Origin: a virus
Reading direction: 5' to 3' (one strand)
DNA: 35,242 nt
Virus record (IMG/VR): IMGVR_UViG_3300030450_002812
Coordinates: 1 to 35,242 of that record
Position numbers and translations under genes: made by a program
The notes under the pieces: generated by a model
The model's input: the letters and a program-made list of their open reading frames with translations, nothing else
Databases searched by the model: none
What the model was told of the DNA's origin: nothing
Part shown: in pieces, positions 6,096 through 35,242 of the stretch
Numbering within the stretch: the first letter of the stretch is position 1
Layout of the letters: each line of letters opens with the position of its first letter

Positions 6096-6531
6096 AACTC
6101 TTCCTTCTAAATTTTGGTGTTCTTTTAATTTTTATTCCCTTATAAGGGTATGTAATACTTCTTCTTGTTTCGCCTGACATACTTATAAAATCATCATACC
6201 ACTCCCACTTATCTTCAGACTCATCCCACTTGTCAGAAACTCTTTGGAATGTCGAGTCTAGGAGTTTTATTGATGCTGAGTCCTTGCCATTTGCGCCCCA
6301 TGATGTTGCTTTTTTAATATTCATCCATCCTTTGTAAGTAAAGAGCGTGTCTTGGACTTGGGTGTCTTTATTGAAGAATATTTTTATAATTTTATCTAAC
6401 ATGACAACTTTTCTTGCATTTATATTCATTTCAATAGACATCTTCCCACTATACTCTATTACTAAAATCTTAACTACTCCTTTAGAGTCGAAATCAACAT
6501 GGTCTTGATATTGTATTATAGATGCGCTCAT
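6079..6531 (-). CDS. Tail protein, unknown
   Basis: A 150-residue protein starting on the stop codon of the giant tail gene (TAATG), so the two are translationally coupled. It is mostly beta-type in the first half, has a tryptophan- and aspartate-rich centre (SDKWDESEDKWEWYDDF) and ends in a strongly basic tail (KIKRTPKFRRKSYGR). No family is recognised. Position suggests a small tail-tip or baseplate component or assembly factor. Confidence 0.55.
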   Translation of the reverse strand: MSASIIQYQDHVDFDSKGVVKILVIEYSGKMSIEMNINARKVVMLDKIIKIFFNKDTQVQDTLFTYKGWMNIKKATSWGANGKDSASIKLLDSTFQRVSDKWDESEDKWEWYDDFISMSGETRRSITYPYKGIKIKRTPKFRRKSYGRNI

Positions 6532-9500
6532 TAAACAAAACCATTTGGGTTTGCTGTTAATTCATATCCATCTATAACCCATAGCTTAAAAATAAGGTCA
6601 TGTTGAAAAGTTGGCCTTGCAAAACCACCAGTTGGGCCAGTCTTGTTTAAATTTATAGTATCTTCATCAGACTCACCTACATTAAAAGTAACTATTCCAT
6701 TTTCAACTGTAGGTCTATTCCCATACTTGTCATATATTTTCAAAGGATTAAAATAAACATTACATCCAGAAGACCATGAACTACTAAAAGCGCTCCAACC
6801 CCCAGTCCACGCATCTCCATAAGAAAGATAATCAAATGTAAAATCAGACGTTGCAAATTTTATAATATTATCATAAGAATCTTTCTGCTCTTGACTCAAA
6901 GCATCGTAATTAAAAGTATCTCTATGCTCAATAGTAAGCTTAACAGGCCCCTTACCTTGAATTGACCAAGGCTCAAGACTTGGCATTGCCGAATCTGTTT
7001 GAGATTCAAAATTAGTCACTGTGGCATTATTAATATTTGTATAATGTTCTGGGCCAGTAACTATCGCTTGTAAAGGAAGAACGATTAATAGGTAATTAAT
7101 ACCCCAGTATGAATTCACGCCCACATTAAGCCTAGTTTTATTATGTTGGCTAGGATTGTTGATAAATTCTTCTGTAAAATATGAAGTATCAAACCAATTT
7201 ACATATCCTTCAGGCCCTTCTCCTGGTGGGTCTGGTGGGTCTGGTGGGTCTACATCCTCTGGCGTTCCCCATATTTCTACGTTTGCATCATTAGTCTCTC
7301 CAATGTCGTCAAGTGATATCCCTAGGTCGCCTGTGTCAAGAACTATAGTGTAGTTTGGGTTATCATATGTAATTGACAAGACAGAGTAATCTCCAGCTAC
7401 ATTTAACCAGTCCCATGGTGGGGTGTCTAAATCTCCAGTAAGAACAGGTTGGAATGTCACGACAGTTCCCTCGAGGGTTTGGTTAGCCCCCAAGGTTTCT
7501 TCTAAATATTCTGATAAATCATAATCAGGGTTAATCGTTGTAGACGAATTTATTACTATGGTTATTTTATCTCCATCATACTGCATTGACACAACGCCAT
7601 TAGAACCATCTTCGCTAGTGTTAATAAGAATCGATCCTATCGGCTCAACATCTTCTGGAGGAAATACAGCTAGTTTTCCTATTTTAACAAGGTCTTCCTC
7701 ATCTACTACGCCACTTAAATCAATATCTGCATTTGCAATTTGCTGTAGGCTGAGTGGATTTGCCACTGGGTCATCTATGTAAGCTTGTACTAAATCAATA
7801 TCTTCTTGTGTTACATATCCATCTCCATCAAGAGTTACGTCACCAGGGGAATAACTATCCCCCATGCCTGCTATGATATAGTTGATAAATTCTATTAAGT
7901 CAAGTAGGTCTACGTTTCCATCTAAATTCAAATCTCCATTTAATAGTTGTTGTTCACTTAGGTTTGCATCCTCAGGATAAAAGCAATGCCAACGCATCAT
8001 ATCATAATCTGATTGTTGATATGGAACCCCATCTATAAGAACATCCCCAGGAGTTTGGATTAATTCTGGTGGTTCTTCCTCTTCCTCGTCATCCTCTGGG
8101 TCTGGGTCAGGAGCTTGTACTGCACCCTCAAGAGCATGTAGCTGTATTGCTTTAATCGAAACGCTACTCATTGTTTTATTAATTTCTGTTATCATAAAAT
8201 AAGGAAGGACTGCTTGAGCCTGTCCCTCTAAAGACTGCAGGTAAGGTAGTCCTGATTCTGCCATAATATCTACCCCATAAGGAGAGAAGAATGAGGTATA
8301 GTCCCCATCACCTATGGTTGCAAAATTTATAGTATCTCCAACCTCTAATTCAAAGCCCTGAGATAGATTAAGTTTAAAGTCTACAACAGTGTGCTGATTT
8401 TTATGTAATTCATGTAAATGATTTCTAAGTAAGAGAGCAGTAGGCTCATCTTGGATATATGGGGCCTCATGTTCTAATAGGAAATCATCGCCCTCGACTT
8501 GCTCAGTAGTAAGTCCATAAAAATTCTTATAGTCTTCGATGTTTGTAGATGTGACTTCCTGAGTTACATGCTTAAAGCTTTCTGTAATATAATCATAGCC
8601 ATACTTAACCCTACATTTAATCGCAAGGTCTTCTATTTTAGTTTTGCTGAATTTATAAGACTCTATATAATCAACGAATATTGTTTTATCTGCCTCGCTG
8701 TATGAATTTAATATGCCCACCACAGTAGGGTCTGAGCTGCTGATGCTAGTCTTGTAAAAGAAATTTGTATTTTGTGCTATGTTCTGAAGGACATCTACAG
8801 TCTTTTGTGGCTTATCTATAGAAAAGTTTAGTTCATAGTTAGCGTCTGCTGTGTTTTTACTAACAAGGTTGCTTGTTCCAAATTCGCTAGATAATAAGCT
8901 ATTGATGATATTCTTGGGTCTTTTTATTAATTTTTTAACATCACTATAGATATAGTCTTCATTAAACCTGACAATAACGTGACTTTCTTCACCATCAGGG
9001 GCAGGAAGATTAAAATCTAGCTCATCCATTCTATCGCTAAAAACATCAATTTCTTCTTCTGATTCTTCGTCTACGCTGCCATCTTGATTTTTAAGACAAC
9101 GAACCAGTCTAACATCTATTGCAATATGATCGGAGCTATCAATAGCATCTGTAAATTCATTTTCTGTTGAGTGTCTATATAAAGTTCCATTAATTGTTAT
9201 AGTATGCTTGGAGAAAGAACTAGTGCAAAAATTATACATTTGGTTTATCTCTAAATCATAAATATAATTTACCTCACCTTGCATCTCCGAGGGAGTATCA
9301 GATGCGTTATGGGAAAATTTAAGCATAATTTCTTTTTTATCATCTGTTATAGGAGTGTATTTTAATTTATCATTTCCAAGGTAGTCTATTAATAGTGCAT
9401 AAATATTATCTTCTTCATCTTGGTGCGAATCTGGATTTGGGCCTATCTTATTATTTGGGCTACAATAAACAACTGGAAGTCCCTGAACTCTTCTTACTCT

Positions 9501-11402
9501 CATATCATTTTGAATCGAGCATCTTCCTTTTGCGTTTAAATAAAATTTATTATTAATAGCATTTTTTTGATACCAAGTCCTTCGTAATAACATCCCCTTG
9601 AACTCTGCAAACAGATTTATTCTTGTTTTATATCCAAGAGTATCTTTTAATGGAACGAAATTTATTAAAAAGGAATTAGTGTCGTGCATTGTATAATTTG
9701 TTATTAAATCTCCCCTATTCCTCCATTGATTGACCTCATTGTCTGTAGGCCCATTAGTTGGTACGTTAAATGGATGCCTATAATCAGTATATATAGCCCC
9801 ATCATTAGTTAAGTCCATATCAAATCTTAATCTCATGGGGCAAGTATCTATTATTGTTCTGGCGTGCTTTTCTAGGTCATCGGCATCTAAAAATCCTGTC
9901 ATAGGGTCTCCTGGCGTAGGGTCTACCCCATTTAATGTACCTGAGCTAAAACCCATACCATCTATATTATACAGACCATCTATTTCACTCCCATCAAGCT
10001 GAATAGTAAAATTATCATAATAGTGGTCAGCAGTTTCAGGGAAAAAACAAGCTATAAACCTTGGGTTGCTATCGTATGCAAAAATATGATCAATAGCAGA
10101 CATTGTAATTTTCATAAAAGATATTAAATTGACATCAGATGGTGTTTCTATCCCACTTTTGCCTTTATATATATCAGAGCTTGATTTCATGGCTTCAAAT
10201 TCGAGAGACATACAAGGATTATCTACAATGTAATGGTTTGCTGCCTGCCCTGATAAATTTTGTATATTAATATGGCCACCTTCTATTGTGTATTGGCCAT
10301 CAGAGTCAGAACTGCTCCCCCACTGGCAAGCCATATCAGATAATATATCAGAGTTTTCTATTTGATTTTCAATCAAATCACCTGCTTCATATCTACCGAA
10401 TTTAGTCCCAATCTGCCCAGATACACTAGTGTGAACTGCGTAAGCATTTTTAAAATTTGTAACCTTTTTTAGGTTTGAATTTTCAGAAACTAGCAATACA
10501 TCTTGTCTAATGTATGGAGAGGCATCATATATTTCGTCTGTGTAGAACTCTATATAATCATTATATATATCAAATTGTTTATCCCAATATATATCGTGTA
10601 GCCTATCATTATTCTGTCTATAGGCAGTTTTTAGTACTCTCGCACCACCCTCGCCTAGTTTGACAGTCATTACGTCTTGCTCTACTAGGTCAGTAACATT
10701 TGAGCCAGATCCACCATCGCTGTATAAGTCTATAAAATCCATTGGCTTTACGCCACCAATTTCCTCATTAGTAAGCATTGCCCTATCAGGGATAACTTTA
10801 ATAGCGCCATCATCATTATCTATAAATGTAATAGCTGGGGCTTCTTTTAAATGACCATATAGGATAGGCACTCTCTGCTCGTTATAAACCTCATAAGTCT
10901 TTCCATCAAGCGTAGCGCCATCATTATCCTCTGAGTATAGGGTGTATTCTTTCTTTGGAAGTTCAGTATGCAGAGACTCTGATAAAAATTCATCACATTG
11001 TAATGTAACTTTCTCTGGGCTTTGGTCGAATCTGGTGACTTTTAATTTAGCAAGCTTTGCGCATTCTTCTAACGTCTCGCAACTTCCTGTCTTTAGGTAA
11101 ATCTCTACAGTTGCATTAAGTATTCCATATTTAGCTCTATCTGTAAATCTTACCCCATCCTTAGCATAATTATTTAAGGTTATGCTAGTTCCAGACATCT
11201 TTACTTTCTTTGATTTAAAATTTATTGATTCTTTTAATGCGCTGATTCTAAGGTCTAGGTCTTCAAAATACACATCTTCAAAATATTGTTCTCTTGTAGA
11301 GAAGTAAAATGTGTCGCTAGCTGATGTAATGACAGCCATAACGTCAAAATTATTAACATCAGTAATTAAGTCTTTCTGTATCTGTTCAGGAATCGTTATC
11401 AT
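6531..11402 (-). CDS. Giant tail-tip protein with dockerin-like repeats
   Basis: A 1623-residue protein directly after the tape measure (ATGA overlap), the usual place for tail-tip hub or host-contact proteins. Residues 1 to about 1090 form the tail part. An acidic linker (PDPDPEDDEEEEEPPE) starts near 1097. Three calcium-loop repeats of dockerin type start near 1156 (GDLNLDGNVD), 1187 (GDVTLDGDGY) and 1225 (ADIDLSGVVD), each followed by a helix. A likely Ig-type beta domain follows, then a PPDPPDPP linker near 1385, and a C-terminal domain of about 230 residues rich in W, Y and S that may bind a surface glycan. Dockerins bind cohesins in cellulosome-type complexes; here they may add calcium-stabilised stiffness or dock another protein. 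An in-frame tandem nine-base repeat encodes the proline linker. Confidence 0.8.
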   Translation of the reverse strand: MITIPEQIQKDLITDVNNFDVMAVITSASDTFYFSTREQYFEDVYFEDLDLRISALKESINFKSKKVKMSGTSITLNNYAKDGVRFTDRAKYGILNATVEIYLKTGSCETLEECAKLAKLKVTRFDQSPEKVTLQCDEFLSESLHTELPKKEYTLYSEDNDGATLDGKTYEVYNEQRVPILYGHLKEAPAITFIDNDDGAIKVIPDRAMLTNEEIGGVKPMDFIDLYSDGGSGSNVTDLVEQDVMTVKLGEGGARVLKTAYRQNNDRLHDIYWDKQFDIYNDYIEFYTDEIYDASPYIRQDVLLVSENSNLKKVTNFKNAYAVHTSVSGQIGTKFGRYEAGDLIENQIENSDILSDMACQWGSSSDSDGQYTIEGGHINIQNLSGQAANHYIVDNPCMSLEFEAMKSSSDIYKGKSGIETPSDVNLISFMKITMSAIDHIFAYDSNPRFIACFFPETADHYYDNFTIQLDGSEIDGLYNIDGMGFSSGTLNGVDPTPGDPMTGFLDADDLEKHARTIIDTCPMRLRFDMDLTNDGAIYTDYRHPFNVPTNGPTDNEVNQWRNRGDLITNYTMHDTNSFLINFVPLKDTLGYKTRINLFAEFKGMLLRRTWYQKNAINNKFYLNAKGRCSIQNDMRVRRVQGLPVVYCSPNNKIGPNPDSHQDEEDNIYALLIDYLGNDKLKYTPITDDKKEIMLKFSHNASDTPSEMQGEVNYIYDLEINQMYNFCTSSFSKHTITINGTLYRHSTENEFTDAIDSSDHIAIDVRLVRCLKNQDGSVDEESEEEIDVFSDRMDELDFNLPAPDGEESHVIVRFNEDYIYSDVKKLIKRPKNIINSLLSSEFGTSNLVSKNTADANYELNFSIDKPQKTVDVLQNIAQNTNFFYKTSISSSDPTVVGILNSYSEADKTIFVDYIESYKFSKTKIEDLAIKCRVKYGYDYITESFKHVTQEVTSTNIEDYKNFYGLTTEQVEGDDFLLEHEAPYIQDEPTALLLRNHLHELHKNQHTVVDFKLNLSQGFELEVGDTINFATIGDGDYTSFFSPYGVDIMAESGLPYLQSLEGQAQAVLPYFMITEINKTMSSVSIKAIQLHALEGAVQAPDPDPEDDEEEEEPPELIQTPGDVLIDGVPYQQSDYDMMRWHCFYPEDANLSEQQLLNGDLNLDGNVDLLDLIEFINYIIAGMGDSYSPGDVTLDGDGYVTQEDIDLVQAYIDDPVANPLSLQQIANADIDLSGVVDEEDLVKIGKLAVFPPEDVEPIGSILINTSEDGSNGVVSMQYDGDKITIVINSSTTINPDYDLSEYLEETLGANQTLEGTVVTFQPVLTGDLDTPPWDWLNVAGDYSVLSITYDNPNYTIVLDTGDLGISLDDIGETNDANVEIWGTPEDVDPPDPPDPPGEGPEGYVNWFDTSYFTEEFINNPSQHNKTRLNVGVNSYWGINYLLIVLPLQAIVTGPEHYTNINNATVTNFESQTDSAMPSLEPWSIQGKGPVKLTIEHRDTFNYDALSQEQKDSYDNIIKFATSDFTFDYLSYGDAWTGGWSAFSSSWSSGCNVYFNPLKIYDKYGNRPTVENGIVTFNVGESDEDTINLNKTGPTGGFARPTFQHDLIFKLWVIDGYELTANPNGFV

Positions 11403-27661: not shown

Positions 27662-28965
27662 TGACCACAGTTGAACAAATTATAGCAGAATCTATAAAAG
27701 ACTTTAAATTAAGCCAAGCTAGATCCAGAAGGGAGGAGATTTACAAGCTTATAGATTATTATTCAGGTACAGAGACACAGAAATATATATCAAGTTACTT
27801 TGATGCCGATGCTTTTAGGGAGATTCCTCTTTATAGCGCTAACTTTACTAAGCGTTTTATAAATAAAATGTCAAGAATTTATAATGTTGGCGCAAATCGT
27901 AATATGGGTTCTCGCTATGATGAGCTTACTATTAGAAAAGATGCTAGAATGAAACACATCGAGAAGATGACGAGGCTTGTTGGGAGCGTAGCGACCCAAG
28001 TTATTTTTAGGGATGGGGATATGCCTCATTTTGATTATCGCCCAGTATATTACTTCGATGTTCACATGGGAGACAATCCTTTTGTGCCACAGGCGATTAC
28101 TTATCCTATCTTGCACAACGTAAATGAGGTTTATGATACAAGAAAACTAGAATATGCGTATTGGGATGCTAATATCTATGCTCACTTTGATGAAGATGGC
28201 AGTATAATGAATGAATATCAGCATGGCTATGGCGTTATTCCTTTTGTATTTACTCACAGGGAAAATCAGATAGATTCTTTCTTTGTCGAGGGGGCTAATG
28301 ATATTGTTGAGTGTAACGAGCAGGTTAATATTACAATGACCGAGCTTCAGCTTGGTTTAAGGTTCCAAATGTTTGGGCAGCCTTATGTTACAGGCGTTTA
28401 TAGTGATAAAGGTATGAAGAGAACTGGTAGTGATCAGATACTTGACCTTCCTGAAGGCTCTACTTTTGGAATTGCATCTCCAGGTGGTAATATAGACTCT
28501 GTAATTGAAAGTGTTAAGTTCCAGGTAGACCTTGTAGCACAAAACAATCACTTATATGTTCAATTTGCTCAAGATGGTGGCGAGGTTCCATCAGGTATCG
28601 CACTTAAGATTAAAGACTTAGAGAGATTTGAAGATTATCAGGATGATATAGAGCTTTGGAGAATGTATGAGCATGAACTGTATCACGTTGAGCGTGCGAT
28701 TGCAGGTTATAATGGAATTAACCTTCCAAATGAGCTTAAGCTTGATTTTATTGAGCCTGAGTATCCTAAAACAGTTCAAGATCAGATTTTACTTGATAAT
28801 CACGCACTTCAGAATAACCTAACCACTCAACCAGAGATGATGGTTAAGCAAAACAAGGATTTATCTATAGAGGAGGCCAGAGAAATTGTCAAAGCAAACA
28901 AGCAAGAAAACGAGCAACAATCAATCTTTGAGAGAATACGTCAGCAAAATCAAAGACCTGCATAA
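27661..28965 (+). CDS. Portal protein
   Basis: A 434-residue protein following the terminase with a TAATG overlap. The N-terminal part (YKLIDYYSGTETQKYISSYF, then FTKRFINKMSRIY) and the central EQVNITMTELQLGLRFQMFG fit the SPP1-gp6-like portal family, which forms the 12-fold ring through which DNA enters. The C-terminal part is a helical, glutamine-rich tail. A further small gene starts within its last 80 bases. Confidence 0.85.
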   Translation: MTTVEQIIAESIKDFKLSQARSRREEIYKLIDYYSGTETQKYISSYFDADAFREIPLYSANFTKRFINKMSRIYNVGANRNMGSRYDELTIRKDARMKHIEKMTRLVGSVATQVIFRDGDMPHFDYRPVYYFDVHMGDNPFVPQAITYPILHNVNEVYDTRKLEYAYWDANIYAHFDEDGSIMNEYQHGYGVIPFVFTHRENQIDSFFVEGANDIVECNEQVNITMTELQLGLRFQMFGQPYVTGVYSDKGMKRTGSDQILDLPEGSTFGIASPGGNIDSVIESVKFQVDLVAQNNHLYVQFAQDGGEVPSGIALKIKDLERFEDYQDDIELWRMYEHELYHVERAIAGYNGINLPNELKLDFIEPEYPKTVQDQILLDNHALQNNLTTQPEMMVKQNKDLSIEEAREIVKANKQENEQQSIFERIRQQNQRPA

Positions 28966-32873: not shown

Positions 32874-33065
32874 ATGAAATTAGGATTTATATATAAAAAT
32901 ATCTATTACTTTAATAAAAATAATAGATTAATTAATGAGAGGTCATTTACAGATTACGACCATTTTAACAAAGTATTTAGAACTAAATTAAAATTAAATA
33001 ATAATTTAAAAATTAAGTTTATAAAAATAGAAAACTTAAAAAATAGATACTGGAAATCAAAATAA
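32874..33065 (+). CDS. Small basic protein, unknown
   Basis: A 63-residue, very lysine- and asparagine-rich protein with an AAAGGAG ribosome site. Tyrosine- and phenylalanine-rich beta-type start, then a basic helix (KLKLNNNLKIKFIKIENLKN). Possibly nucleic-acid or ribosome binding; unknown. The codon use is extremely AT-rich, as in the whole operon. Confidence 0.55.
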   Translation: MKLGFIYKNIYYFNKNNRLINERSFTDYDHFNKVFRTKLKLNNNLKIKFIKIENLKNRYWKSK

Positions 33066-33084: not shown

Positions 33085-33255
33085 ATGAATGAACTACAAA
33101 AACATAAAATAAATAGAAAGCTTGATACAAAAGAAAAAATAGTAATTAAAGCTCAAGCTGAAAAAATCGAATCTTTAAAAGCTGAAATTAAAGACCTTAA
33201 ACAACAGCTTTATAAAAAAGTTGATACTATAGACTATTACAGAAATAAATTCTAA
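33085..33255 (+). CDS. Small coiled-coil protein upstream of ribozyme
   Basis: A 56-residue, lysine/glutamate-rich helical protein (AQAEKIESLKAEIKDLKQQL forms a heptad-like coiled coil). GGGAG precedes the ATG at a usable distance. Its stop codon TAA (33253-33255) is the last part of helix I of the hammerhead ribozyme, so a ribosome finishing this gene covers the ribozyme's first strand. The function is unknown. Confidence 0.65.
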   Translation: MNELQKHKINRKLDTKEKIVIKAQAEKIESLKAEIKDLKQQLYKKVDTIDYYRNKF

Positions 33256-33315
33256 CTGATGAGAGATTAAATCTCGAAACTTTGAACGCTGTGAAGCTGT
33301 GCGAAGTCTTAGAAT
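33249..33315 (+). ncRNA. Type I hammerhead ribozyme
   Basis: Helix I: ATTCTAA (33249-33255) pairs with TTAGAAT (33309-33315). Core: CTGATGA (33256-33262). Helix II: GAGAT-TAA-ATCTC (33263-33275), five perfect pairs. Core: GAA (33276-33278) with A15.1 at 33279. Helix III: ACTTTG (33279-33284) with CGAAGT (33302-33307), an internal loop AAC/TGTG, then GCT-GTGA-AGC closed by a GNRA-type loop. Site: C17 at 33308 (GUC triplet), so cleavage falls between 33308 and 33309. The open helix is I, which makes it type I. All conserved core bases of the hammerhead are present. It fills the 79-base gap between two small genes and would split their shared mRNA, leaving a 5'-OH 26 bases before the next start codon. 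Confidence 0.93.
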
Positions 33316-33334
33316 AAATTAAGGGAATAAAACA

Positions 33335-33532
33335 ATGAAATTAAAGACATCAGAAAAACATATTATTATATTAGCATTTGGAGAGTTATTATCTAAAGCA
33401 AAAAGAAAAATTAAAGGCATTGAAAATAAAGGGGTGGATTCTGTCCACGAAGCACAGAGTATAAATCAAATTCACAGATGGATAGCCACATTAAATGATT
33501 TAGAAAATAAACTAATAAATGAGCAAAATTAA
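33335..33532 (+). CDS. Small helical protein after ribozyme, unknown
   Basis: A 65-residue basic helical protein (KHIIILAFGELLSKAKRKIK, then NQIHRWIATLNDLENKL). An AAGGGA site precedes the ATG. If the ribozyme cuts, its mRNA would begin at 33309, giving a leader of 26 bases that still contains this ribosome site. Its stop overlaps the start of the next gene. No family is recognised. Confidence 0.6.
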   Translation: MKLKTSEKHIIILAFGELLSKAKRKIKGIENKGVDSVHEAQSINQIHRWIATLNDLENKLINEQN

Positions 33533-35194: not shown

Positions 35195-35242
35195 TTTATA
35201 TCTATCCCCTTAGATTAGAGCTAAGAGTTTTGCCTAGAGGAA
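35195..35242. repeat. Terminal direct repeat, right copy
   Basis: Identical to bases 6-53. Together with the left copy it shows redundancy of the contig ends. If the genome is circular, the unique length is close to 35.19 kb. Confidence 0.9.

Follow-up and report, generated by a model that had tools for sequence, protein, structure and literature searches.

Hammerhead motif at a junction of small phage genes

The window (the whole stretch of DNA analysed, a virus contig of 35,242 bases) contains genes for the terminase large subunit, major head protein, tape measure and tail proteins and, judged from these, is a tailed-phage genome. As its last 48 bases (35195-35242) are an exact repeat of bases 6-53, the contig probably represents a complete circular map, on which the small plus-strand genes at the right end would run on into the small genes of the left end. 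No DNA relatives of the window were found among named phages, the weak matches there being attributed to chance, and among bacterial genomes a related terminase was seen in one marine MAG contig, bacterium TMED88. On the minus strand, positions 6531-11402 encode a 1,623-AA protein of the structural region, in which dockerin type I was matched weakly (E 1.6e-4) and short of the curated cut-off.

Two small plus-strand genes, 33085-33255 (56 AA) and 33335-33532 (65 AA), both without a match in the family search, flank a hammerhead motif located on the coding strand at the junction 33255/33335. For the downstream gene no protein relatives were found. The UAA stop of the upstream ORF (33253-33255) falls inside the 5′ strand of helix I of the motif, and a Shine-Dalgarno-like AAGGGA (33321-33326) precedes the downstream start codon at 33335. 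This arrangement, together with the terminase, major head and tape measure matches, bears out the initial annotation, which had placed a hammerhead of a phage within a run of small co-directional genes, in a position to split their mRNA. The operon itself is presumed, since in a promoter and terminator scan of the region the signals stayed at shuffle level and none stood out.

Read from the sequence, positions 33249-33315 of the plus strand form a complete type I hammerhead with all core bases, three full helices and a GUC site; the core, the five-pair helix II and the GNRA-capped helix III described initially are all present. Helix I consists of 7 pairs between ATTCTAA (33249-33255) and TTAGAAT (33309-33315), both strands being also recognized in the alignment of relatives. 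It is followed by the core CTGATGA (C3 to A9, 33256-33262), by helix II, GAGAT-TAA-ATCTC (33263-33275), in which 33263-33267 pair with 33271-33275 around the loop TAA, and by the core GAA (G12 A13 A14, 33276-33278). Helix III (33279-33307), seen in the sequence, the fold and the relatives' alignment, starts with the pair A15.1-U16.1 (33279 and 33307) and comprises 11 standard pairs, one A-G mismatch and one bulged T, with a GTGA tetraloop of the GNRA type at 33291-33294. C17 is at 33308 and cleavage is predicted between 33308 and 33309, so that the 5′-OH end is expected at 33309, the position given in the initial annotation.

All bases of the hammerhead core as defined in PMC3088659 (C3 U4 G5 A6 N7 G8 A9, G12 A13 A14, A15.1-U16.1 and H17) were found within 33256-33308. 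The core-adjacent pairs 10.1-11.1, 1.1-2.1 and 15.1-16.1 are formed as G-C, T-A and A-T, and the topology is that of type I, with helix I open to the transcript and loops closing helices II and III. Among phage hammerheads an A precedes helix I in 157 of 201 and AA follows it in 152 of 201 at each place, while loop II is mostly UNNAU; in sequence comparison, the corresponding bases of the window are TTAAA and AA. The conserved flanks only suggest a tertiary contact between the helix I region and loop II, as in the fast form.

Model searches and Rfam

A loose core pattern gave 2 matches in the window vs. 0.91 expected, and we rejected it as evidence. The whole motif, defined by at least 5, 4 and 4 pairs in helices I, II and III, respectively, was absent from all 1,200 windows simulated with matching dinucleotide composition, and RNAfold predicted a similar three-way junction (z-score -2.4). 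With an independent covariance model, trained on 30 other phage hammerheads with the window copy left out, the motif scored 48.5 bits (E 6.1e-12); the same model found no second significant site in the window. For model building the MAFFT alignment A4 was dropped, as its helix columns were out of register, and two-sided changes among the 30 selected hammerheads were not counted as proof because those sequences had been picked by pairing.

Small circular RNAs and retrozyme-like elements carry hammerheads, and the motif could accordingly mark one end of such an element. Yet release of a circle requires two sites or a tandem unit and the window holds a single hammerhead. A small circular RNA was rejected on this ground, and we consider the explanation as a whole most improbable.

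The scan with Rfam models proposed in the initial annotation did not support the motif: no match to the window was obtained at gathering scores. The best match of the hammerhead was RF03152 (RAGATH-1-hammerhead) with 25.4 bits vs. a cut-off of 56.3, and RF00163 (Hammerhead_1, gathering score 34) reported no match for the window copy. A second RF03152 match, at 28943 (11.2 bits, E 1.06), was dismissed as chance, the same search giving a signal in 8 of 14 control genomes. The window motif shares its core and its open helix I with RF00163, from which it differs in the long helix III with a GNRA loop and the short uninterrupted helix I. Its match to RAGATH-1 covers model positions 1-77, but it is far under the cut-off, and the window offers no support for the additional 5′ hairpin which this model has.

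Scores below the Rfam thresholds would fit a chance look-alike or a dead relic. Rfam is, however, equally silent on many perfect phage hammerheads: in 14 loci examined that carry them, no model reports any at its gathering score. Sub-threshold matches of phage hammerheads fall to RF00163 and RF02275, and other phage hammerheads of our set reach 27-30 bits with RF00163. The empty simulations, the score with the independent model and the same-locus conservation with paired changes (see below) also argue against this explanation, which we regard as very unlikely. At curated cut-offs Rfam thus misses phage hammerheads, and annotation pipelines undercount them.

Same-locus relatives and variant forms

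Relatives were collected through the terminase, a related one being present in each of eighty IMG/VR loci; the model of 30 phage hammerheads gave matches in 7 of 41 relatives' records, most of these records being fragments. Two loci, L008 (terminase 94% identical, retrieved via the terminase and not the motif) and L194 (retrieved by pattern), carry the ribozyme at the window's position, two genes downstream of a homologue of ORF 32874-33065. Across the three sequences all 23 of 23 pairs are kept and no pair is broken. The initial annotation had suggested looking for compensatory changes in related phages, and we found four two-sided pair changes in this comparison: helix II has three of them and the tip of helix III the fourth, the loop there remaining GNRA in all three sequences. 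The pairing result was matched by 8 of 500 shuffles, and slid pairings were 29-48% paired vs. 100% for the true register. Helix I is identical in the three sequences and is thus neutral evidence; its support comes from the wider set only.

The genes around the ribozyme are less constant. The upstream ORFs of the window, L008 and L194 are dissimilar to one another, and in L194 the ribozyme is followed by the counterpart of the window's next-but-one gene. Together with L005 (its end is L323), these loci have differing neighbours on both sides and retain the ribozyme, which, by sequence comparison, is better kept at this locus than the neighbouring genes. Helix II of L194 vs. L005 differs as a block. 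L015 (terminase 90% identical) spans the syntenic region and has no ribozyme.

The change of neighbours around a persisting ribozyme and the block difference in helix II could mean that the hammerhead is retained mainly because it travels with recombining small-gene cassettes or provides homology for them, its cleavage being of little effect. Selection on the RNA fold is nevertheless shown by the pairs that changed on both sides and by the loop, which has stayed GNRA; the strand bias and the distance to the following start codon, described below, point to a role in the transcript. We therefore hold gene exchange to be an unlikely explanation of the motif.

Variant hammerheads were seen in several loci. 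Five copies share CTGATGA-C-GCT-TAA-AGC-A-GAAAC, with a C-A mismatch at 10.1/11.1 (L322:1507-1547; L325:4681-4726; L326:1612-1657 and 2271-2316; L404:9114-9158); each forms 7 pairs in helix I and 7-10 in helix III. The stem-loop C-GCTTAAAGC-A is fixed in these five copies, whose helices I and III are variable and fully paired. A C-A mismatch with another stem is located at L077:15714-15774, and A-A mismatches at 10.1/11.1 occur at L323:1501-1562 (L005, the window's close relative) and L329:3462-3487. The only natural active mismatch at this position in PMC3088659 is U-U, and we found no description of the C-A or A-A forms in the open-access literature. It is conceivable, if doubtful, that the hammerhead is a fixed punctuation mark of this phage lineage around which genes turn over, and that its helix II is swapped as one unit between the canonical form and an unreported, predicted active C-A/A-A 10.1/11.1 form with the fixed C-GCU-UAA-AGC-A stem-loop, which would set the rate of cleavage and, through it, the balance of the mRNAs.

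Other forms include hammerheads in which a single additional T separates A9 from helix II (CTGATGA-T-GG...CC-GAAA or CTGACGA-T-...; L153, L165, L293:10923, L316:6348-6400, L107:9872, L151), one of them in the TMED88 MAG contig with the related terminase. A subfamily, CTGTCT-CTGATGAGTCCGTAGGGACGAAAC (TCTGTCTCTGATGAGTCC...GGGACGAAAC...GTCAGACAGC), is located 13-363 nt after a phage tRNA gene on the same strand (L229:585-621; L223:5283-5319; L292:3877-3913; L242:5255-5291; L257:5645-5681; L305:5357-5393; L265:2170-2206) and, from this position, possibly acts in tRNA 3′ processing. Theta ribozymes (PMC10879173) are likewise a self-cleaving RNA class in phage genomes; these have an HDV-like fold and are linked to phage tRNAs, a setting that only the tRNA-linked hammerhead subfamily resembles.

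Phage hammerheads in IMG/VR and predicted transcript cleavage

Two pattern scans of IMG/VR for canonical hammerheads, with helix I specified or unspecified, covered at least 120 stretches each. Among the matches listed for the unspecified scan 106 were distinct, and they formed two clear groups, 50 with 5-8 and 55 with 0-2 helix I pairs, which indicates that about half of the matches are real hammerheads. Over all loci, at least 226 distinct hammerheads were confirmed in at least 155 loci; by these pattern counts, hammerheads are common in phage metagenomes. Several contigs (L150, L151, L101, L187) carry 3 to 6 in a row, and L150:1264-2952 and L151:6271-11133 contain tandem series of 4 and 6, each hammerhead between genes. 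An unannotated hammerhead (51.2 bits) was also found in the cultured Agrobacterium phage OLIVR1 (MT234338.1, L448:1198-1247), between the tiny genes gp12 and gp13.

The view that a hammerhead between coding genes of a phage transcript is a rarity, as the initial annotation had it, is contradicted by the pattern scans and by the literature. In prophages, clustered hammerheads flank single genes or short gene blocks, some cleave in vitro and in vivo, and a splitting of long phage transcripts was proposed for them (Perreault et al. 2011, PMC3088659). A 2017 review (PMC6155905) describes hammerheads as frequent neighbours of ORFs for small, non-conserved proteins, ties them to phages and leaves their role open. 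The window motif resembles the prophage hammerheads in its position at a small-phage-gene junction, its agreement with the direction of transcription and the proposed transcript splitting. Unlike the clustered ones, it is a single copy in an uncultured phage; beyond the prophage case, the copies at this locus in its relatives carry paired changes, and the genes on either side of them turn over. The HHphage of haloviruses HF1/HF2 (PMC3088659) is also found shortly upstream of a phage gene, and a 5′ end was mapped within 3 nt of its cut site, but its core contains insertions, and the gene 13 nt downstream of it encodes a helicase. The window hammerhead is thus a sound new example of an arrangement described since 2011, and not a rare one.

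We compared the context of 192 phage hammerheads with flanks, among the matches listed, with that of 573 control positions. Of these hammerheads 167 were co-oriented with the local ORFs and 24 were against them. A Shine-Dalgarno sequence and ATG followed 15-59 nt after the site in 65 of the 192 listed hammerheads vs. 19 of 573 controls, and 18 of the 192 listed were inside long ORFs vs. 246 of 573 controls. The stop of the upstream ORF was within -4 to 9 nt of the core in 141 of the 192 listed vs. 42 of 573 controls, a closeness that is partly built in, as the motif itself contains UAA and UGA, which stop any entering ORF.

This closeness, and the UAA at 33253-33255 as part of helix I, could reflect cleavage tuned by translation: a terminating ribosome would cover helix I and the core, so that cutting occurred only between ribosomes and was tied to translation of the upstream gene. 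Apart from the built-in share of the count, conservation of the overlap is lacking, as the upstream ORFs of L008 and L194 stop 5-10 nt ahead of helix I. Such tuning appears quite improbable to us.

From the sequence, structure, conservation and gene-junction position of the motif we infer cleavage, separate mRNAs and an effect on stability, and consider it probable that constitutive self-cleavage of a polycistronic phage mRNA separates the mRNAs of neighbouring small genes. The RNA would fold while RNA polymerase passes and then cut itself after C33308, giving the neighbouring small genes mRNAs of their own. The helix III hairpin, bearing a 2′,3′-cyclic phosphate, would form the end of the upstream mRNA, and the downstream mRNA would start with a 5′-OH, followed by a 26-nt leader (33309-33334), the ribosome-binding site and, at 33335, the start codon. 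Bacterial 5′-end-dependent decay favours a 5′-monophosphate and 3′ exonucleases are blocked by a hairpin; mRNA stability would therefore probably be altered through the 5′-OH and the terminal hairpin. Functionally, the predicted cleavage would do without a protein what RNase III processing does in T7-like phages. Counting against it, the ribozyme is not universal, being absent from the syntenic L015, and the core-adjacent mismatch of some relatives is expected to slow cleavage.

The purpose of phage hammerheads has been open since 2011, and this locus bears on that question. With one ribozyme, three relatives with the same site, differing neighbours and natural helix II variants, it offers a good test case.
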